Shown piece by piece: positions 1-15,793 of a DNA stretch of 21,259 nucleotides; position 1 is the stretch's first letter, and each line of letters starts with the position of its first letter. The stretch is from a virus. Made by a program: the position numbers and the translations under genes. Below the pieces are notes generated by a model. That model saw only the letters and a program-made list of their open reading frames with translations, did no database searches and was not told the DNA's origin. Location of the stretch: the IMG/VR virus record IMGVR_UViG_3300035701_000344, positions 1 through 21,259 of that record; one strand, written 5' to 3'.

Positions 1-509
1 CCATAGACCCGCGCTCCCTATCCGCCAAAGACCGCCGCCGTTACATCGCGTGGCGCATCCTGGGCTCGCCGGGCAAGGGCATTCAGAAGCAGCTCGCCGA
101 AGAGTGCGGATGCTCCGAAGCCTCAATCAGCGCGGACATGGACTCTATCGAGTACATGACCGAAGCGAGCGAGGTCTTCCGGGCGTTCGTCAAGAAGCAG
201 CTCTTACCGAAAGCGATCACGAATATATCAAAGGCGATGGAGCGCGAATCGAAGATGGAGAAGGGCAAGCCGGAAGTCAGCCTGGAAATGGTCAAGGAGT
301 TCGGGCACCTGTTCATCCCGCCCCCGACTCAGCGCTATGAGGACGTGACCCCCGTCCCACCCGGCGATAGCCTTGACACGGAGATCGGTGCCCAGGTGGA
401 TGCGGTCCTGGCTCACATGATCGAGAAGTCCGGGAACGGGCAGGGCGGTGACGGCAACGGCGATATCGACATAGGTGAAATCGACAGCGGGGAGCCTCAT
501 GCCGATTGA
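1..509 (+). CDS. terS: Terminase small subunit, 5' end cut off by the window
   Basis: The frame is open from the left edge (first full codon at position 3) and shows 168 residues. An ATG at 138 exists, but the clearest domain lies before it, so the true start is outside the window. Visible residues 28-50 (IQKQLAEECGCSEASIS and onward) form a helix-turn-helix, as expected of a small terminase subunit that recognises the packaging site on phage DNA and loads the large subunit. The middle is charged and helical; the C-terminus is a Gly/Asp-rich tail (GNGQGGDGNGDIDIG), probably flexible. The position upstream of the large terminase supports the call, although four other genes intervene. It overlaps the next gene by 11 bases. 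A general HTH regulator is the alternative. Confidence 0.6.
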   Translation, partial: IDPRSLSAKDRRRYIAWRILGSPGKGIQKQLAEECGCSEASISADMDSIEYMTEASEVFRAFVKKQLLPKAITNISKAMERESKMEKGKPEVSLEMVKEFGHLFIPPPTQRYEDVTPVPPGDSLDTEIGAQVDAVLAHMIEKSGNGQGGDGNGDIDIGEIDSGEPHAD

Positions 510-2043
510 CATTCTGAAGGCCGATTTCCACTTTCCCCGCCGCGTCTACGTTGTGGGTTCCGGCTTATCAGCCCGCGAGAACGCCCGCCTCATTCCTCCT
601 GACGCTTTCATAATCGCCTGCAACCGCGCTATCGAGCTTCCAATCAAGGCCACAATCTGGCTCTGCCACGACGTGAACCTGCAAAAGAATGCCTGGTTTA
701 ATGACCGGATGGGCGCGATATCGACCGCCTTAAAAAAACTCGACATCAAGAATATCCGGGCGGGGGGAAACACTGTCCCGGTTTTCTCCACGGAGCTTCA
801 GAGAATATTCCCCGTCGTGCGCGTCGTGTTTCAATCATGCGGCGACCTTTACAAGACGCTTGACCCCGCGCCCGACTACCTTTCGCCCGCCGCGACAGTG
901 ACGGGACAGGCTATCCAGCTCGCGTTCATTCTCGGATCGAAAGAGATCATCCTTGTCGGTTGTGACATGCGCGGCGGATACTTCACCGGCGAGAAAGCCT
1001 ATCCAGGCGACTGGCCCTGCAAGGCTGAATTCGACTGGCTCGTGAACTATCTCAGAACGGAGCACCGCATCGATATCCAGCGCATCGAGGATATGCACGT
1101 GACGGACCCCGAACAAATAACAATGGATTCGGAAGCCAACCCTATATGCAATCCGCCCGCCGATCTGGGGCCAGTGAAGAGTTTGACCGTGTTCTGGACG
1201 GCGGACGGGATAAAAGTCAAGCCGGTCGTGTCTCGCGGGTCCAAGTCAGACATAACCCCGCTTTCCGATGCGACCGGCTTACCCTCTATCGGTTACCTGT
1301 GCATGACCTTCGACCCCATCGACATGATGAACGCCGTGCATGACTTCATGTGTCAGGACTGGCCCATCGACCGAAAGAAACTCTATCTGCTCCGACAGAG
1401 AAATGGCGCGGGTCAGTTCCCGCCCCGGATCGTGAACAATCTCGGCTTGCAGATCGTCGAGATCGATGTCGATTTCTATCCCTGGCCTGAGATGTGGACG
1501 GGCAAGTTCATGGCTTACCTGGAGGCTTGCGACTGTGAATACACACTCTGGTTTGATGAGGACGACCGGTATCCGCCTGATTACACGCGACTTGCAATTC
1601 TACCTATCCTTGCTGGCTTGGCCGAGCTTTCGTGGTCGTGGGATTGCATCATCGCAGAACACGATGTGGGCACCGGCACCTTTCAATTTCGGGATGACTG
1701 GTATCGATCTCCTGTCGGCCAAATGGTCATAAAGACGGACCTTTTGCGCGAGTACCGAGACCGGATATGGCGGCGATTGTATGAGGGCGATTTCCATTCG
1801 CCGAAGCGGATCGCCGGAGTCCCTTACGGCGGCGCTCAGGATGATCAACTCAGACAAATGATTCAGCGCGACATCCCGGATATTCCTCACCATCGGGCGA
1901 AGCGAGTCTACTTCGTGACCAGCCTGGCGAACTCAGCGCAACTTAGAGCAAGGGGCAATGCGCTCGATTACCGGGGCAAGCGGGGAACCGCTGAGGAAGC
2001 GGAAGTACAACCGACGCGATTTGATTTCCCGAGGAGTGGATAA
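499..2043 (+). CDS. Two-domain sugar transferase: DUF115/MptE-like plus GT-A-like glycosyltransferase
   Basis: A 514-residue protein. I start it at ATG 499, preceded by GGGGAG four bases away, rather than at GTG 475. Residues 15-200 look like the DUF115/MptE-like superfamily, which includes flagellin glycosylation factors and resembles GT42 sialyltransferases: VYVVGSGLSA at 16-25, IIACNRA at 38-44, TVTGQAIQLA at 133-142 and ILVGCDMRGGYF at 151-162. Residues 265-475 look like a separate GT-A-type glycosyltransferase: YLCMTFD at 266-272, then YTLWFDEDDRYPPDY at 348-362, where the acidic run resembles the metal- and nucleotide-sugar-binding DxD motif. Likely role: attaching or building a sugar, on the virion or on a host glycan; the substrate cannot be read. 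It overlaps the terminase small subunit gene and abuts a methyltransferase gene. The domain calls are moderate; the joint function is inference. Confidence 0.6.
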   Translation: MPIDILKADFHFPRRVYVVGSGLSARENARLIPPDAFIIACNRAIELPIKATIWLCHDVNLQKNAWFNDRMGAISTALKKLDIKNIRAGGNTVPVFSTELQRIFPVVRVVFQSCGDLYKTLDPAPDYLSPAATVTGQAIQLAFILGSKEIILVGCDMRGGYFTGEKAYPGDWPCKAEFDWLVNYLRTEHRIDIQRIEDMHVTDPEQITMDSEANPICNPPADLGPVKSLTVFWTADGIKVKPVVSRGSKSDITPLSDATGLPSIGYLCMTFDPIDMMNAVHDFMCQDWPIDRKKLYLLRQRNGAGQFPPRIVNNLGLQIVEIDVDFYPWPEMWTGKFMAYLEACDCEYTLWFDEDDRYPPDYTRLAILPILAGLAELSWSWDCIIAEHDVGTGTFQFRDDWYRSPVGQMVIKTDLLREYRDRIWRRLYEGDFHSPKRIAGVPYGGAQDDQLRQMIQRDIPDIPHHRAKRVYFVTSLANSAQLRARGNALDYRGKRGTAEEAEVQPTRFDFPRSG

Positions 2044-2655
2044 GTGGCTCACCCCCAGATGCGCGAATTCCTTGAACGAGTGAAGCGGGATCATCCCGAA
2101 CACTTCTGGCGCGTCCGGGTTCTCGATTGTGGCTCCCTCGATATCAACGGTTGCAATCGCGATCTCTGGAATCTGGAATCGGGCTATACCGGCATCGACC
2201 TGGGTCCGGGCAAGAACGTGAACATGGTCATGGCTATCGAGGATGCGGACTGGCGAGAGGGTCATTTCCATTGCATCATCTCAACGGAGTGTTTTGAGCA
2301 TAATCCTAACTGGCGTTCGGGTCTCTTGAACATGGTTCGGATGCTCAGGCCGGGCGGCTTGCTAATCGTGACGTGTGCGACCATCGGGCGCGATCCGCAT
2401 GGCGTTCCTGAAAACAGCCCCTATGACTCCCCATACACGCTCGACAACGGCTACTATAAGAATCTCACGGAACAGGATATCCGGGCGGTTATCAATGCGG
2501 ATGATTTCGAGCACTTTGAGTTCGCGGTTAACGAGGAGAGCCATGACCTGTACTTCCATGCGGTCAAGCGCGGCGATCTCGTTCACGGTTGCACATGCGA
2601 TGACCTGAACGGAAAGAACAAGGAGCAAAAGCAATGGATGAATCTGGAAAAGTGA
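2044..2655 (+). CDS. Class I SAM-dependent methyltransferase
   Basis: A 203-residue protein starting at GTG 2044, directly after the upstream TAA, with GAGGAG (2031-2036) seven bases before it. The Rossmann methyltransferase motifs run in order: motif I VLDCGSLDING at 26-36, the acidic strand end YTGIDL at 48-53, FHCIISTECFEH at 75-86, and the post-motif LRPGGLLIVTC at 101-111. This is the pattern of small-molecule, sugar or lipid methyltransferases; no DNA-methylase catalytic motif (DPPY or PCQ type) is present. The Cys-containing motif I (DCGS rather than DxGxG) is slightly degenerate. It sits between two DUF115-like genes, so O-methylation of a sugar made by the neighbours is the natural reading, but the substrate is inferred from context only. 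The C-terminus carries CTC and Lys-rich residues and overlaps the next gene by 22 bases. Confidence 0.75.
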   Translation: MAHPQMREFLERVKRDHPEHFWRVRVLDCGSLDINGCNRDLWNLESGYTGIDLGPGKNVNMVMAIEDADWREGHFHCIISTECFEHNPNWRSGLLNMVRMLRPGGLLIVTCATIGRDPHGVPENSPYDSPYTLDNGYYKNLTEQDIRAVINADDFEHFEFAVNEESHDLYFHAVKRGDLVHGCTCDDLNGKNKEQKQWMNLEK

Positions 2656-3305
2656 CCCTATATCCCGACGTGCCAAAGCCGAACCGATACGGCTTGCCGG
2701 ATGCGGCGCATATTCCCAATGCCGGTCACCTTTCATCCGTGCCGGTGACGATTATCGCACCCGGCCCCAAAGGGAGACCTCATTGGGAAGAAAAGGAAGG
2801 CTTAGTGATTGCCGTCAATTCCGCAATAACAATCGATGTCGATCCTGTAATGTGGTTTATTGCGGATGGGAATGCGCCGGGGCTGACATGGTTCAAGAGG
2901 GGCATGGATGCTTCAATGAAATCGACTATACGCGTCTTCTCTGAGGCTATCCATCAGCGCTCCGATTACAAGGGTGACTACACATTCTGGCTTGCCCCGT
3001 CTCACTTCGACACCGACGCAGACATGGTTTCTTTTATGCAGGAACCTTACCGCGTCGATCCCGATTTCTTCCGACCCACCGAGACTGTCACCGGGATCGC
3101 GATTGATTTTGCCGTTCGCTACGGCGCGAAGCAGATCAATCTTATCGGGGTGGACATGGAGGGCGGATACTTCGATGATCCGCCGGGCCTGAACCGCGAT
3201 GTTATCAACTCATACAACCGCGACTGCTTGCAGAAAGAGATCGACTATTTCAAGGCGCGTGGCATTGAGTTCCGCGCCCTATCACCGACACGATTGGATG
3301 TGTGA
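2634..3305 (+). CDS. DUF115/MptE-like protein, paralogue of the N-terminal half of the first cassette gene
   Basis: A 223-residue protein starting at ATG 2634, with AAGGAG (2620-2625) eight bases upstream and inside the end of the methyltransferase gene. The key block is ETVTGIAIDFA at 150-160 followed by INLIGVDMEGGYF at 168-180. It matches the 499-2043 product almost position for position (TVTGxAIxxA, xxLxGxDMxGGYF). The N-terminal VTIIAPGPKGR at 38-48 is the counterpart of VVGSGLSA but lacks the Ser-containing loop, so the nucleotide-binding end may differ or be inactive. The protein is shorter and has no GT-A domain. A sugar-transfer or accessory role in the same pathway is plausible. No signal peptide or membrane segment is seen. 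Confidence 0.55.
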   Translation: MDESGKVTLYPDVPKPNRYGLPDAAHIPNAGHLSSVPVTIIAPGPKGRPHWEEKEGLVIAVNSAITIDVDPVMWFIADGNAPGLTWFKRGMDASMKSTIRVFSEAIHQRSDYKGDYTFWLAPSHFDTDADMVSFMQEPYRVDPDFFRPTETVTGIAIDFAVRYGAKQINLIGVDMEGGYFDDPPGLNRDVINSYNRDCLQKEIDYFKARGIEFRALSPTRLDV

Positions 3306-3527: not shown

Positions 3528-4925
3528 ATGACAATCGTCCGCGATGAAATAGTCTCTCAAGTCCGCCAGCGCGTGATTCGCAACCGCATCCTGAAGCGGC
3601 TCGGCCTCGTTCCTCACGCTGGGCAGCAACGGGTCTTGGACGCTATCGACCGGGGCTGTAAGCGCATCGGCGTCAATGCAGGGACACGAGGCGGCAAGAG
3701 CGTTATCACTCAGGCCCCGATTCTCACCCAGGGCACATTCGGCCCGGACGGAAAACAACCGCTCCGCGTGATCCCGATTATTGCCCCTTACGCCGAACTC
3801 ACTGACAAGGTTTTCCGAATGGTCTCCAAAGCGATCATGCGTGACAACATTTACCGGACTTTCATTCCCGACTTTAACCCCCGCCGGCAGGTCAAATACA
3901 GCGAACGGGAGCGCTATATCGAAATGCCCTGGGAAGCGCGGATCATCGGATCGACCGCCGATAATCCCGCCTCGATACTCGGCGAAGGCTGGCCGTTCGT
4001 GCTCTGCGATGAGTTTGCCCGCTTCAAGCCGGGGGTCTTTGAGGAGTATGTAGAGCGCGGCCTTACCGACGTGAACGGATGTGCTCTCTTAATCACAACG
4101 CCACACGGAATGAATCACTGGCACGATATCTTCATGGACTGGACACGACAGGCCGCGATGGACCCGACCTATTACACGACTTGCTGGACCTCTTACGAAA
4201 ACCCCTATGTCAGCCATGAAGCGATAGACAAAATCCGTGAAGAGTACGAGCGGCGTGGATTGATGGACGTATTTCGGATGAACTTCCTCGCTGAGTTCAC
4301 GGCCTTGCAGGGCGCTATCTACGGAATGTTCCGACCCTCGCGTGGCTCCGATCCCTGGCACGTCGGGGATGTTGAATTTGAGCCGGAGCTTCCCGTCTAT
4401 CTGGGGATCGACTGGGGCGAGAATTTCCGCTGCCTCTTCGGGCAAGTCGCCGAATGGGACTGTCTGAACGTGATCGACGAAATCGCGATAGTCGAGAACG
4501 CCCCTAACCGCCAGCTCGATGCAGTCATGCAGAAGCTGGAGCACTACGCGAAGCTGGCCGGGATAGATCAACCCGGCGAACTGATCCAAATGGCCTATTG
4601 TGATCCGAGCGGTAAGCAGATGAAGACGCACTTCCAGCGGGCGGGTATCTCCGTATTCTGGACTTCACCGGAGGAGAAGAGGACCATAAACGACGTCGAG
4701 GACGGTATCACAGCCGTGCAGTGGCGATTCTCAGAGCCTGACCGACCAATGCTTCGGATCGACCGTTCCCGGTGCCCTGACCTCATTGAGCGCGTTCCTG
4801 CGTATGAGCGGAACTCCGTAACGACCTCGCCGATCAAGCTCAATGACCACAGCGTAGATGCCCTCCGGTATCTTGTTGTGGGATGTTTTGGGCTTGTCGC
4901 GGAACCTGCCCGGATGTTTTTTTAA
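3528..4925 (+). CDS. terL: Terminase large subunit (packaging ATPase and nuclease)
   Basis: A 465-residue protein, within the usual range for the family. It is the motor that pumps DNA into the prohead through the portal and cuts the concatemer. The ATPase half shows a Walker A-like AGTRGGKS at 51-58, Walker B FVLCDE at 157-162 and a coupling motif LLITTPHG at 187-194. The RNase H-like nuclease half shows its three acidic positions: YLGIDWGE (Asp295), AYCDPSG (Asp359) and NDHSVDALRY (Asp440/Asp444). All expected catalytic residues are present, so the enzyme looks intact. It follows a structured leader that may limit translation. The gene ends in a T-rich stretch before the promoter candidate at 4937. 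Start ATG 3528 has GAGG nine bases upstream. Confidence 0.95.
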   Translation: MTIVRDEIVSQVRQRVIRNRILKRLGLVPHAGQQRVLDAIDRGCKRIGVNAGTRGGKSVITQAPILTQGTFGPDGKQPLRVIPIIAPYAELTDKVFRMVSKAIMRDNIYRTFIPDFNPRRQVKYSERERYIEMPWEARIIGSTADNPASILGEGWPFVLCDEFARFKPGVFEEYVERGLTDVNGCALLITTPHGMNHWHDIFMDWTRQAAMDPTYYTTCWTSYENPYVSHEAIDKIREEYERRGLMDVFRMNFLAEFTALQGAIYGMFRPSRGSDPWHVGDVEFEPELPVYLGIDWGENFRCLFGQVAEWDCLNVIDEIAIVENAPNRQLDAVMQKLEHYAKLAGIDQPGELIQMAYCDPSGKQMKTHFQRAGISVFWTSPEEKRTINDVEDGITAVQWRFSEPDRPMLRIDRSRCPDLIERVPAYERNSVTTSPIKLNDHSVDALRYLVVGCFGLVAEPARMFF

Positions 4926-4936
4926 GTTGTCCCCTC

Positions 4937-4966
4937 TTGACACCCCGGCTATTTTGTGTCTTTAAT
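4937..4966 (+). promoter_or_regulatory. Sigma-70-like promoter candidate before the portal gene
   Basis: A perfect -35 hexamer TTGACA (4937-4942) is followed after 18 bases by TTTAAT (4961-4966), one mismatch from TATAAT though at a conserved position. It sits in the only noticeable gap of the packaging-capsid region (67 bases), just after the large-terminase stop. A transcript would start near 4973 and give a leader of about 20 bases to the portal ATG. This suggests separate dosing of the capsid genes. Confidence 0.5.
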
Positions 4967-4972
4967 TAGACA
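4957..4972. repeat. Small inverted repeat overlapping the -10 region
   Basis: TGTCT (4957-4961) and AGACA (4968-4972) are perfect inverted arms around a six-base centre that holds most of the -10 candidate. This is where an operator would lie. At 5 bp per arm it can also arise by chance. Confidence 0.3.
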
Positions 4973-4992
4973 TCAAATCTATGTCCACCTAG

Positions 4993-9293: not shown

Positions 9294-9755
9294 ATGAATA
9301 TCGACAACTCAGACTCATTCGACATCTGTCAGGTGCTCGCCCCGGTCTCAAAGGTGAGCAACGCAACTGACTTCTACTCCTCGCCCTGTTCAATGGTGGG
9401 GTACAATTCCGCGACTGCTGTGATCGGTCTCGGAGCTGCGACATCCGATACCCTGTCGGGTGCGCTCTACTGGACTTTCAAACTCCAGGAAAGCGATACC
9501 TACAATTCGGGTTTCACAGACGTCGCGGCGGGCGAGATCACGAACTTGGCTGCGAACTCCGTCGTAGTTGACGCGAACGGCAAACTCGCGACAGCCTACA
9601 AGATCGGCTACAAGGGCGACGCGAAGTACATTCGCGTGGCCTGCGTGGTCACCGGCAACCATGTTTACGGGAACCTGATGGACATGTACATCGTTCTCGG
9701 AAACAAGCGCATGGGTGGCGGCTCTGACACAGCCATTGCCGTTGCGACAGCTTAG
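9294..9755 (+). CDS. Putative head decoration or minor virion protein, copy 1
   Basis: A 153-residue, beta-rich, Cys-poor protein with no catalytic motif. GGAGGA (9278-9283) lies ten bases before ATG 9294. Its core is TLSGALYWTFKLQESDT at 53-69, FTDVAAGEI at 74-82, YKIGYKGDAKYIRVACVV at 102-119, TGNH at 120-123 and VLGNKR at 134-139. The same pattern recurs in the next gene, so the two are paralogues. Proteins of this size directly after the capsid gene are often capsid-surface decoration or stabilising proteins; that is inference from position. A Gly-rich C-terminus (MGGGSD) follows the domain. It ends with the only TAG stop used by a full gene here. Confidence 0.55.
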   Translation: MNIDNSDSFDICQVLAPVSKVSNATDFYSSPCSMVGYNSATAVIGLGAATSDTLSGALYWTFKLQESDTYNSGFTDVAAGEITNLAANSVVVDANGKLATAYKIGYKGDAKYIRVACVVTGNHVYGNLMDMYIVLGNKRMGGGSDTAIAVATA

Positions 9756-9786: not shown

Positions 9787-9821
9787 GGGGGGCGGGAACT
9801 CACACTCCAATCCCGCCCCCC
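9787..9821 (+). other. Strong GC-rich hairpin between the paired virion genes
   Basis: Six G, C, GGG, A (9787-9797) pairs perfectly with T, CCC, G, six C (9811-9821): an 11-bp stem, ten of the pairs G:C, around a 13-base loop. No T run follows, so it is not a normal intrinsic terminator on the + strand. It fills most of the 86-base gap and could block 3' exonucleases, mark an RNA processing point, or lower downstream expression relative to the capsid gene. Confidence 0.6.
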
Positions 9822-9841
9822 CGTGATTGAACGGTGACATC

Positions 9842-10279
9842 ATGGACGATATTTCGGGACGCATAACCTATCAACTGCTTACCGTCCCGGCGATCAAGAC
9901 CGGAACGGTTACGTCGGATGCCTGCAACGTCCAGGGCTACGAGGGTGCGGCCTTTTGCGCGATATTCGGGAACTCCAGCGATGTACTTTCCGGGACGCTT
10001 TATTGGTCCGGAAAGCTCACCGAATGCGATACTGAGGGCGGCTCGTATACCGATGTCGCAACCGAGGACATCCAGATCGCGGCTACTAACTCATTCGCGA
10101 TGGTCGATGCGCCCACGGAAGATCAGGCTTGTTTCTGGATCGGATACGGGGGGTCGAAGAAATACGTCAAGGTCGTGATAACCGCGACAGGCACTCATGC
10201 GGTCGGAACGATTATCTCGATTGTGGCGTTGCTTGGGATGCCGCGAACTCAGACTGAGGGAGGCGCGGTGAATCCATGA
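9842..10279 (+). CDS. Putative head decoration or minor virion protein, copy 2
   Basis: A 145-residue protein. I choose ATG 9842 (GGTGA a few bases upstream) over the TTG at 9827. It repeats the architecture of the preceding gene: VLSGTLYWSGKLTECDT at 48-64, YTDVATEDI at 69-77, WIGYGGSKKYVKVVITA at 99-115, TGTH at 116-119 and LLGMPR at 130-135. The N-terminal 35 residues and the C-terminal tail differ. The pair most simply arose by an old duplication, and the divergence suggests two distinct sites on the virion. No enzymatic motif is present. It overlaps the next gene by four bases (ATGA). Confidence 0.55.
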   Translation: MDDISGRITYQLLTVPAIKTGTVTSDACNVQGYEGAAFCAIFGNSSDVLSGTLYWSGKLTECDTEGGSYTDVATEDIQIAATNSFAMVDAPTEDQACFWIGYGGSKKYVKVVITATGTHAVGTIISIVALLGMPRTQTEGGAVNP

Positions 10280-12212: not shown

Positions 12213-13157
12213 ATGAACCCGCCAATCGTTACAAGAACATCGAAGGTTGTGTATAACAGCCTGAAACATCCCGTGACCGGCCTGAGTCCGAACTGGCATC
12301 ATGGGATCACACATCCCGGCGCGGATACACCGCCTTCCGCACATACCAAGCCACAGGCGGGCGCGATTCATAGCGCGGGAGTTTTCATGACCGAACTCAG
12401 AGGATCGGCTAATACGGGCGGATTGAAAGTGCCTCCCGATGCGGTGCTTTTCAAGGCGATAGCTTTGAAGGAAACACTTGTCGGAGGTGGACCACCCGCT
12501 ACAGGCACAACCTCGGCCACTTACGCCTGGACAGGCGATATAAACCTCACTCCGGGCGACCTTGTGCCGGTTTCTTTTGGTGGCATTTATCACGGCAACG
12601 CTGAAAAAGAAAACTGCACGAGTGCCGTCGGGAATCTCCAACTGAGATTGGAGCCGAACTCGTCCGCAATCTGTGCCTGGTCCTGGGCGGGCATTTATGC
12701 GGCAGCCAGTGAAGCGGCCTCAACGGATGCTCTCGAAACGGCGGCCTATGGCCCGGTTTGTAAAGCTCTGACAATCAGTGTCGGCGGAATAACTTCCCGA
12801 ATCAAGCGCATGGTCTTTGATTTTAACAACACCGATAACGCCCCGAATCTCGACCTTGGCGGAGTTGCCGGTGTCCAGGCTCCGGTTCTGACTTATTCCT
12901 ACCCGACTTGTACGGTCGAAATCGAGCAGCCTGCGTATTCGGTTTACAATGCAGAAACCAACTGGACGGCGGGGACGAAGAACGCAATAAGCGCGGTGCT
13001 CGGCTCAGTCGCGGGCAATATCTTCACGATCACGATGGACGGATATCTCGCGGGATTCCCGGAAGCGGCGGATCAAGCGGGCGTCCGGGGTCGCGGTCTG
13101 GTCTTTGCCCAGGCTACCGGGTCCGGCGATACGCTCTGGAATATGGTGTGTACATGA
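12213..13157 (+). CDS. Major tail tube protein
   Basis: A 314-residue protein from ATG 12213 with GGAGG (12200-12204) eight bases upstream. The composition is rich in Thr, Gly, Val and Ala with alternating strands, as in beta-barrel tail tube subunits; KRMVFDFNNTDNAPNLD and TCTVEIEQPAYS near residues 200-245 resemble strand-loop stretches of tube proteins. It lies exactly where the tube gene is expected: after the terminator and ahead of the chaperone pair and tape measure. No immunoglobulin-like C-terminal domain is apparent. The call is therefore positional plus fold-like composition. It overlaps the next small gene by four bases. Confidence 0.65.
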   Translation: MNPPIVTRTSKVVYNSLKHPVTGLSPNWHHGITHPGADTPPSAHTKPQAGAIHSAGVFMTELRGSANTGGLKVPPDAVLFKAIALKETLVGGGPPATGTTSATYAWTGDINLTPGDLVPVSFGGIYHGNAEKENCTSAVGNLQLRLEPNSSAICAWSWAGIYAAASEAASTDALETAAYGPVCKALTISVGGITSRIKRMVFDFNNTDNAPNLDLGGVAGVQAPVLTYSYPTCTVEIEQPAYSVYNAETNWTAGTKNAISAVLGSVAGNIFTITMDGYLAGFPEAADQAGVRGRGLVFAQATGSGDTLWNMVCT

Positions 13158-13288
13158 ACGATGTTAGCACTGGAGAATTGCTCCACGCCTATCTGTGGGG
13201 GCAGATATGGGGTCCGGTCATCGGGATAGTCCTGGGAATTGTCATTGTCATAATCATGATCGCATTCGGCGACAAGAAAAAAGATTAA
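13154..13288 (+). CDS. 44-residue single-span membrane peptide
   Basis: Starts at ATG 13154 in an ATGA overlap with the tail tube stop. A clear hydrophobic segment at 18-38 (IWGPVIGIVLGIVIVIIMIAF) is followed at once by a basic end (GDKKKD), which predicts N-out/C-in or similar single-span topology. It is too short for a classical holin and sits far from where lysis genes usually are. Membrane peptides are unusual in the tube-chaperone interval. It may be an unplaced holin-like or superinfection-related protein. The strict overlap and clean topology argue against chance. Confidence 0.55.
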   Translation: MNDVSTGELLHAYLWGQIWGPVIGIVLGIVIVIIMIAFGDKKKD

Positions 13289-13303: not shown

Positions 13304-13777
13304 ATGACAGAGAACGCAGATCGATTTCAGGAGCAGTGGATACCGTCGCCGAGCGACCCGACGGTTGAATTTCTCATTACACCGCTGAAGGTTCGACAAC
13401 GGACGTTCATTCTTACCAATAACATCATGCCAGCCGGATTTGATGCGGATGGTACGCCTCAATTTGCGACGGAAGTAGCAGGTGAAGCCATCGATATCGT
13501 CCGACTCTCCCTCAAAGGGGTTCGACGGAATGGGGAAGCGATCAAGCTGGACTTTTCACGCGAGAAGATCGGCGGGCGAGTCATGTCCGTTGTTTCCGAC
13601 TTGGGGCTGGAAACTCTTCAGGATTTCTGGATTTACGAAATCCGAAATGCCGTCCGGGATATAGGACTGCTTTCGGATAGTGATAAGACCGAAATAAAAA
13701 ATACGCTGGACTCGCCTTCGGAGACTTCGAGTGTGCCGGAGACGAGTCCCGATGTGCCTGTGGCTCCGGAGAGTTGA
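13304..13777 (+). CDS. Tail assembly chaperone, short form (G-like)
   Basis: A 157-residue protein from ATG 13304 with GGAAGG (13291-13296) seven bases upstream. The N-terminal part (VEFLITPLKVRQRTFI at 21-36) and helical middle (IDIVRLSLKGVRRNG, GLETLQDFWIYEIRNAVRDIG) fit a tail assembly chaperone, which wraps the tape measure while tube subunits polymerise. The last 24 residues after the frameshift site (TLDSPSETSSVPETSPD and onward) are Ser/Pro-rich and disordered, as expected when the zero-frame tail carries little structure. Position directly before the tape measure, plus the frameshift signal, decides the call. Confidence 0.75.
   Translation: MTENADRFQEQWIPSPSDPTVEFLITPLKVRQRTFILTNNIMPAGFDADGTPQFATEVAGEAIDIVRLSLKGVRRNGEAIKLDFSREKIGGRVMSVVSDLGLETLQDFWIYEIRNAVRDIGLLSDSDKTEIKNTLDSPSETSSVPETSPDVPVAPES
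13696..13749 (+). promoter_or_regulatory. Programmed -1 frameshift signal: slippery heptamer and downstream stem
   Basis: The heptamer A AAA AAT (13696-13702) is in the correct register for a -1 slip (zero-frame codons AAA AAT). After a five-base spacer, GGACTCG (13708-13714) can pair perfectly with CGAGTCC (13743-13749), a 7-bp stem 5' boundary at the distance typical of stimulatory structures. The -1 frame has a TAA at 13684-13686 just before the heptamer and is then open to 14025. Together these are the hallmarks of the G/GT frameshift of siphovirus tail chaperones. Confidence 0.8.
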
Positions 13778-14025
13778 TAATCGACCGGAAGATTATCAAC
13801 GATGAAAGTATTCCGATCTTCGCGCATGGATGTCCCTTTAAGTCTGTAAGTCCCCTAATTTGGATGCTGGTCGATTATTATGTTCATTACAAGGCCGGGC
13901 ATCTGAAAGATTCCGGAGGCGTTGACGATCAGGAAGTCTGGTACATGGACGCGATGGAAATCTTCACAACTGAAATGAGTCTCGCTGAGAAGGGGCAGTT
14001 CGAGCGAAAACATGGTAAGTCGTAA
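13702..14025 (+). CDS. Tail assembly chaperone extension (T-like), made by -1 frameshift
   Basis: This is the -1 frame after the slippery site. It adds 107 residues to the first 133 of the G-like protein for a predicted 240-residue GT-like fusion. The join region is Gly/Cys-rich (YAGLAFGDFECAGDESRCAC), then the core IIDRKIINDESIPIFAHG and SPLIWMLVDYYVHYKAGHL, a helix QEVWYMDAMEIFTTEM, and the end FERKHGKS. A TTG at 13774 overlaps the G-like stop (TTGA) and could alternatively start a separate 83-residue protein, but it has no ribosome-binding site as good as those of neighbouring genes. In known phages the fusion binds tape measure and tube protein. It overlaps the tape measure gene by 14 bases. 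Confidence 0.75.
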   Translation, partial: YAGLAFGDFECAGDESRCACGSGELIIDRKIINDESIPIFAHGCPFKSVSPLIWMLVDYYVHYKAGHLKDSGGVDDQEVWYMDAMEIFTTEMSLAEKGQFERKHGKS

Positions 14026-15793
14026 AGAACTAGAAGTCTTGATTACCGCTCGGGATGAATTGAGCGCGGTCATCGATAAGACCGGAAATGCTGCTGCTGC
14101 TGCCGGTGCTAAGTTCTCAGCCTCCGCAACAGAAATAATGGCATGGGGCCAGAAAGTAAATCGCGTTGGTGCCGCTCTGACCCAAAACGTAACGTTCCCG
14201 ATAGTGGGGATTGGTACGGCGGCGGTCAAGATGTCGTTCGATATCCTCAAAAGTAAGGATGCGATAGATAGGATGTCGAATGAGGGTAAGCTAAAGATGG
14301 CTGAACTGTGGCAGGCCACAAAGGATACTACCGATGCTTATCTGAATATGAAAATCGTAATCGCTGAGGCTGTGGCTCCTGCCATTAGTGATTTAATCAA
14401 TAATCAACTCAATCCACTTATAGACAGGCTTACGCAGATAATCGGTAAATGGGGCGAACAAAGCGAGAGCATGAAGGAATCGCAAATTATAACGCTTGCT
14501 CTTGTCGCCACAGCGGGTCCAGTCATTCAATGGAGCGCGTCTATCGTGACCGCTGCCGCTGCCGCTACAATCGCATTTGGGGCCGTCGGTGCGGCAGCGA
14601 CTCTTGCAATGTTTGCCATTGTTGGATTAGTTGCCGCATGGATTTATCAGAAAACGGTCATGGCTAACTTCGATCCTACGGCAGTCTCGGGACCGGGACC
14701 GGAAGGGGCTGCTCTCAGAGCCGCAGTAGGCAGTATGGCGGGCGGGACAGGGATGCCGAGTGAGAGCCGAACGGCGGATGCAATCGCAAAATCCCAGGCC
14801 GATCTCGCCGCTGCAAATATGCTTGCCTATCTGAATAGTTTCAATAGGGACGGAACTGTAGGACGCGGCGGCGGGGGCGGCGGGGGAGTACCCGTCATAT
14901 CCGGCGCGGGAATCGGTCCCGGAAGATGGGGTGCGGAATTAGATGCCGCTCGCGCCACGGCTTATGTCGAGGCACATAAATTTGTAGAAGGCGCAATCTC
15001 GGAACTTTGGAGCAATACCTTTGTTCTGCCCAGAAGTGCCACAATGGGAGGCCAGGCATTTGATTTCATGCGGGGACCATGGGCAAAGCCCTGGACCGCA
15101 TCAAGGGAACAATCCTTTCAAACGTGGTGGAATAGTGTTAGGTCAATAAATGACTTTGATATGGGCGCGCCTAGTACTAAACTGCAACAATATGATCTTC
15201 GTGGATATTGGAGTGCAAACCAACCTGGTTTGGGCGTATACGGCACTTGGCAAGAGGAACATCAACAATTCCGACTGCCTGATGAATGGAAGCGCCCTGG
15301 GTCTCCAGAGGATGTAGATAGCATTCATGCTCTCTTATATAGGCCAGATTCATATTACGAACTACCCAAATATCGAGCGCCTGGATGGGGTTATATTCCC
15401 GGTGAAGGCGGTTTTGGATACAAAAAAGGACCAGGTAAGGGAGCCGTCCCCATCTGGCAGCGCAATGACTGGCTCTGGGGCGCGGGTATCCAAGCGGCGA
15501 ACGTCGCGACGGGACAGGCGGACTGGACCTCGATGCTGCCGATAGTCGGGAGTGCGTTCGGCCCGGTCGGTGCGGCAGTCGGCGGCGTTCTCGCATCGAT
15601 ATTCGGAGGCAAGCAGAAGCAGCGCGGGAATGACCCGGCTAATCCGCTCTACGTCAAAGACATCAACACCGGTAGCCTCATTACCGAACTGATGAATCTA
15701 ACTAAGAGCCTTCTGGCGCGGACCGGGTCCGGCGTGATAGACCGGCTCGCATCCGATCTGAGAATGCAGACCGCATCGAGGGGGCTGGCATGA
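14012..15793 (+). CDS. Tail tape measure protein, short and mosaic
   Basis: A 593-residue protein; tape measures are often longer. The start is typical: RKELEVLITARDELSAVID at 4-22, then KVNRVGAALTQNVTFPIVGIG at 48-68 (given as KVNRVGAALTQNV and TFPIVGIG), the usual entry to a TP901-type domain, but that domain is missing and the chain passes to MAELWQATKDTTDAYL and a helical stretch with NPLIDRLTQIIGKWGE. Hydrophobic residues 170-212 could insert in the host membrane during ejection. After a Gly7 linker (286-292) the sequence becomes Trp-rich and holds YDLRGYW (394-400) and LPDEWKRP (422-429), a motif pair known to me from other phage structural proteins. The C-terminus has a second hydrophobic Ala/Gly stretch. 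DNA of the middle part is about 46 percent GC against about 69 percent just after. Confidence 0.75.
   Translation: MVSRKELEVLITARDELSAVIDKTGNAAAAAGAKFSASATEIMAWGQKVNRVGAALTQNVTFPIVGIGTAAVKMSFDILKSKDAIDRMSNEGKLKMAELWQATKDTTDAYLNMKIVIAEAVAPAISDLINNQLNPLIDRLTQIIGKWGEQSESMKESQIITLALVATAGPVIQWSASIVTAAAAATIAFGAVGAAATLAMFAIVGLVAAWIYQKTVMANFDPTAVSGPGPEGAALRAAVGSMAGGTGMPSESRTADAIAKSQADLAAANMLAYLNSFNRDGTVGRGGGGGGGVPVISGAGIGPGRWGAELDAARATAYVEAHKFVEGAISELWSNTFVLPRSATMGGQAFDFMRGPWAKPWTASREQSFQTWWNSVRSINDFDMGAPSTKLQQYDLRGYWSANQPGLGVYGTWQEEHQQFRLPDEWKRPGSPEDVDSIHALLYRPDSYYELPKYRAPGWGYIPGEGGFGYKKGPGKGAVPIWQRNDWLWGAGIQAANVATGQADWTSMLPIVGSAFGPVGAAVGGVLASIFGGKQKQRGNDPANPLYVKDINTGSLITELMNLTKSLLARTGSGVIDRLASDLRMQTASRGLA

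Follow-up and report, generated by a model that had tools for sequence, protein, structure and literature searches.

A predicted -1 frameshift of the lambda G/GT type in the tail assembly chaperone gene of an uncultivated virus

Genes and reading frames at the locus

The window, by which we mean the whole stretch of DNA analyzed, is an uncultivated virus record of 21,259 nt (IMG/VR IMGVR_UViG_3300035701_000344). Profile searches and comparisons revealed genes for terminase, portal, protease, HK97-type capsid, adaptor and neck proteins in the usual siphovirus order, and the tail terminator, predicted tail tube and tape measure genes continue this order. The original prediction described the genome as GC-rich, which holds only mildly (about 55% G+C). 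The gene of interest, G, begins at ATG 13304, stops at TGA 13775 and lies downstream of the gene for the predicted major tail protein (12213-13157) and upstream of the tape measure gene. The major tail protein gene has homologues at the syntenic position in both L002 and L040. L002 and L040 are uncultivated phage contigs, while two further relatives, Alteromonas phage P24 and Agrobacterium phage JP1, are isolates; the place of G and the gene order are common to the window and these four. The features at the locus are as follows.

13304..13777, + strand: G, predicted tail assembly chaperone, zero-frame product 157 aa (from position, gene order and frameshift)
13678..13686, + strand: three -1-frame stops in a row (TAG TGA TAA), upstream bound of the -1 frame (from sequence)
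13696..13702, + strand: putative slippery heptamer A AAA AAT, in register (from sequence, and from relatives with A AAT TTT or A AAA AAC)
13702..14025, + strand: T, predicted -1-frame extension of 107 codons plus stop (from sequence and homology with relatives)
13708..13714, + strand: 5′ arm (GGACTCG) of the predicted downstream stimulatory hairpin (from sequence and folding)
13716..13741, + strand: upper part of this hairpin, an inner stem with a small loop (from folding)
13743..13749, + strand: 3′ arm (CGAGTCC) of this hairpin (from sequence and folding)
13773..13800, + strand: predicted 10-bp perfect hairpin over the G stop and TTG 13774 (from folding)
14012..15793, + strand: tape measure protein gene, directly 3′ of G/T (PHROG 4704, E 3e-6)

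A 44-residue ORF with one apparent membrane-spanning stretch and no family match lies between the tail protein gene and G (13154-13288).

Profile searches of G and T from the window, L002, L040 and P24 against PHROGs and Pfam returned nothing significant, and the identity of G as a tail chaperone is consequently based on position, gene order and the frameshift. G is poorly conserved, with 24% identity to its L002 counterpart (E 0.007 for this single pair). The AlphaFold models were of low confidence and too poor for use (pLDDT 47 for G and 41 for T), and that of G gave no fold match.

Read from ATG 13304, the zero frame of G runs ACC GAA ATA AAA AAT ACG CTG GAC TCG, and the heptamer A AAA AAT is thus in the X XXY YYZ register that had been claimed for it. 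The -1-frame stop said to lie 10 bases before the heptamer is indeed there (TAA 13684-13686), although at a spacing of nine bases. Past the slip site the -1 frame is open for the expected 107 codons to TAA 14023-14025, running into the tape measure gene, which begins at 14012, and the predicted fusion has the anticipated 240 residues (133 + 107) with the junction ...TEIKNYAGLAFGDFE... The zero-frame product extends beyond the slip site by 24 residues in the window, 44 in L002 and 23 in L040, while in P24 the zero-frame stop directly follows the heptamer; these differences agree with the earlier impression that the zero-frame tail is disposable.

The slip site and its stimulators

A bare heptamer is weak evidence, since some in-register XXXYYYZ occurred in 41% of codon shuffles of G. 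With Y restricted to A or T, only 4 other in-register heptamers were found in the 6228 codons of the window, a rate that predicts 0.02 of them in the 30 codons over which both frames stay open. The frameshift signal alone could still be a product of chance, and it is the relatives that decide the matter.

The predicted 7-bp stem is present, with GGACTCG (13708-13714) facing CGAGTCC (13743-13749) after a 5-nt spacer. Its 28-nt loop, the structure of which had been overlooked, is itself mostly paired (13716-13722 with 13734-13741). Folding of the RNA, proposed earlier as a check, gave a minimum free energy of -23.9 kcal/mol over 53 nt (z -2.82); this was equalled in 5 of 200 shuffles and is within the best 0.75% of 53-nt segments on this strand, and 1.5% of places have a perfect 7-bp stem at about this distance. 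The window thus carries a predicted stable hairpin 5 nt downstream, within the 5-8 nt expected of signals of the dnaX type. Upstream of the slip site we found no convincing Shine-Dalgarno-like stimulator, the best duplex (-4.1 kcal/mol) being equalled at 27% of places. The signal had been called complete, which is true of the heptamer and the hairpin but not of an upstream Shine-Dalgarno-like stimulator, though one is present in two relatives.

In L002, a Shine-Dalgarno-like GAGGAG about 10 nt upstream scores -6.4 kcal/mol (6% of places are as good), and a 9-bp stem with G-U pairs lies 7 nt downstream (53-nt energy 4%). L040 has a stronger Shine-Dalgarno-like stretch, AAGGAGGA, 12 nt upstream (-10.0 kcal/mol, 0.3%) and a weak downstream structure (36%), while in P24 neither type of stimulator was found at the slip site. 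The stimulators therefore vary, with a strong hairpin in the window, a Shine-Dalgarno-like stretch in L040 and moderate forms of both in L002, and the hairpin regions compared are three very different sequences without a common stem. A trade-off between the hairpin and the Shine-Dalgarno-like stimulator is, with so few cases, only a hypothesis.

Relatives and the T domain

L002 was found through its capsid protein (65% identical) and has the same gene order as the window. Its G (14919-15575) contains A AAT TTT at 15434, at the same aligned place as the heptamer of the window (residues EIKNT there and EINFT in L002); the -1 frame then encodes a homologue of T, which matches that of the window at 39% over 51 residues (E 1e-11). 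L040 was retrieved with an alignment of these two T sequences; it has A AAT TTT at 4899 within G (4522-4977) and, in the -1 frame, a T with 39% identity over 101 aa, after which comes the tape measure gene. The YYY triplet thus differs wholesale, AAA in the window versus TTT in L002 and L040, and the protein changes from KN to NF while the slippery form is kept.

P24 and JP1 were traced through the T of L040 and then that of P24. Both carry A AAA AAC in register and a homologous T in the -1 frame ahead of the tape measure gene, as in the window apart from the different heptamer. In both deposited genomes this part was overlooked or shortened: nothing is annotated between G and the tape measure gene of P24, where its T lies (L043 3348-3659), and the annotation of JP1 covers just the final portion of its T (L045 2507-2860). 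The database matches to P24 are weak alone (E 0.07 and 0.08), but a five-sequence comparison gave E 3e-9 for the T of P24 versus that of the window, and position and frame agree. The original prediction had asked whether homologues might have a closed -1 frame; in all four homologous loci it continues uninterrupted beyond an in-register heptamer and codes for a T homologue, an outcome in favour of the prediction. Searches with the G or T of the window alone found no relatives in viral contigs, nor did G among phage records; portal and terminase scans added no useful relatives, other capsid matches were distant (at most 38% identity), and bacterial and archaeal genomes searched with the capsid or T yielded no relative.

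The T of the window has a Cys-rich part followed by a GGV[DE]DQ..WY..AM motif. All five T sequences begin after the slip with K-[KF]. Three cysteines follow K-[KF] in the window, L002, P24 and JP1 and more in L040; all five then share a further conserved cysteine column, which precedes a GG[VLI]xxQ core. L002, L040, P24 and JP1 have a CxxC spacing, whereas the window has C-x6-C-x-C instead, and metal binding by T is for this reason a suggestion only. A Cys-rich T domain without a match among Pfam and PHROGs families, possibly one that binds metal, is mildly new. The codons of the first three cysteines precede the zero-frame stop in the window, L002 and L040, in the region where both frames overlap. 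Conservation of the -1 frame inside this overlap is, at the level of sequence, the best evidence for the predicted translation of T from the slip site.

How the two frames may be joined

We conclude that the locus is very probably a lambda-type G/GT -1 frameshift of a tail assembly chaperone gene: a small gene precedes the tape measure gene, an XXXYYYZ heptamer lies near the 3′ end of G, and a conserved T follows in the -1 frame. Membership of this group is accepted on the gene order, the slip site and the conserved -1 frame; what the sequences themselves provide is the register, the open frame, the predicted hairpin, the homology of T and the conservation of the arrangement.

We infer the slipping, its efficiency and the roles of the products in tail assembly as follows. 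Most ribosomes would read G through to TGA 13775. A minority would be delayed by the hairpin, five bases downstream, while their Lys and Asn tRNAs are paired with AAA AAT; these ribosomes would slip back one base, re-pair on AAA AAA and continue into T in the -1 frame, producing the 240-residue fusion of G and T. If the proteins act as in lambda, coating of the tape measure protein would fall to G and recruitment of the major tail protein to T. With its Asn codon in the A site, A AAA AAT is expected to be a less efficient slip site in E. coli than A AAA AAG.

The only serious rival is that T is a separate gene translated from its own start at TTG 13774 and coupled to G by a stop-start overlap (TTGA), the heptamer being incidental, and we regard this as very unlikely. 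TTG 13774 overlaps the G stop TGA 13775 and has GGAG just upstream, but GGAG two bases from the TTG is too close for good initiation, the TTG lies within the predicted 10-bp hairpin (arms GTTGATAATC / GATTATCAAC; a perfect stem this long with a loop of up to 20 occurs at only one other place in the window), and a T from this start, the only possible one in the window, would lose the three cysteines encoded upstream of it. Possible starts exist in other loci as well: L040 has an ATG 15 bases past its G stop, the T ORF of Synechococcus phage S-CBS3 is annotated from TTG, and the short ORF of JP1 from GTG at 2675. The rival is nevertheless contradicted by L002 and P24, in which no start codon serves T. 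In L002 the open -1 frame (15386-15778, after a stop at 15383) lacks any ATG, GTG or TTG before 15665, whereas the homology to the window begins about 100 bases or more before that position; its T cysteines, its IDR..ND motif and the core from about 15539 precede any start. In P24 no ATG, GTG or TTG is usable for T before its conserved core.

Even less probable is that the frames are joined by RNA polymerase slippage rather than by ribosomes. The window does have a run of six A, which is short for transcriptional slippage, and A-rich runs can serve both ribosomal and transcriptional slippage (PMC3711429). L002 and L040, however, carry A3T4, keeping the XXXYYYZ form without a homopolymer, and a hairpin lies downstream in the window at the spacing expected for ribosomes. 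A chance heptamer beside a sequencing error or decayed gene, conceivable for a metagenome assembly given how common in-register heptamers are, is hardly credible and is refuted, barring one error common to all, by the same arrangement in five independent sequences including two isolates.

Phage lambda slips on the heptamer G GGA AAG. The frameshift of its G/GT tail assembly chaperone was reportedly described by Xu, Hendrix and Duda in 2004. In the lambda scheme as reviewed (PMC5009743), G is the binding partner of the tape measure protein, and the tail tube protein is brought in by a G-T fusion made in the minority of cases. The window resembles lambda in the order of major tail protein, G, T in the -1 frame and tape measure, in an XXXYYYZ near the end of G and in a minority fusion, the last presumed for the window, and differs in its A AAA AAT heptamer and in a G and T that match no profiled family. 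The E. coli dnaX -1 frameshift uses A AAA AAG (PMC3711429). The A-rich heptamer and downstream hairpin of the window are alike, as are the Shine-Dalgarno-like stretches 10-12 nt upstream in L002 and L040; in contrast to dnaX, the gene of the window is a viral structural one, its A-site codon specifies Asn and it lacks a stimulator upstream. In S-CBS3 gp12/gp13, the end of G carries an in-register A AAA AAC and T follows in the -1 frame, although there a Phage_TAC_4 chaperone is joined to a DUF1799 T and not to one of the Cys-rich family; S-CBS3 gp11 resembles the tail protein of L040. Thousands of phage genomes have annotated tail chaperone frameshifts, with 2397 in the SEA-PHAGES set (PMC10885494), and shifting of 6-7% was found for a tested cluster (PMC3711429). 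Literature searches on A AAA AAU or AAAAAAT in tail frameshifting yielded only a survey listing A-rich heptamers.

The locus would cleanly illustrate a decoding event that is widespread in phages, here in a lineage with an unprofiled chaperone. Its relatives retain the slip position while heptamer and stimulator have changed, and may serve as a natural experiment, on a small scale, on the requirements of a frameshift signal. A bolder proposal, which we put forward tentatively and consider rather doubtful, is a chaperone family with a frameshift-encoded, four-cysteine, metal-binding T, in which slip sites and stimulators have been exchanged while the slip place was kept, and in which the hairpin over the G stop blocks internal starts, such that T is made only by frameshifting.

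Elsewhere in the window, two similar-looking small genes stand in tandem 3′ of the capsid gene (9294-9755 and 9827-10279), and a tandem pair is also present in L002 (11291-11746 and 11819-12256); in both genomes these are possibly decoration proteins. Between the two genes of the window lies an 11-bp hairpin (9787-9821, GGGGGGCGGGA / TCCCGCCCCCC), which is not a standard terminator because no T run comes after it. Upstream of the terminase gene (475-3305), a methyltransferase ORF lies between two MptE-like ORFs (below the Pfam cut-off), and a comparable MptE-like ORF is located upstream of the adaptor gene in L040.
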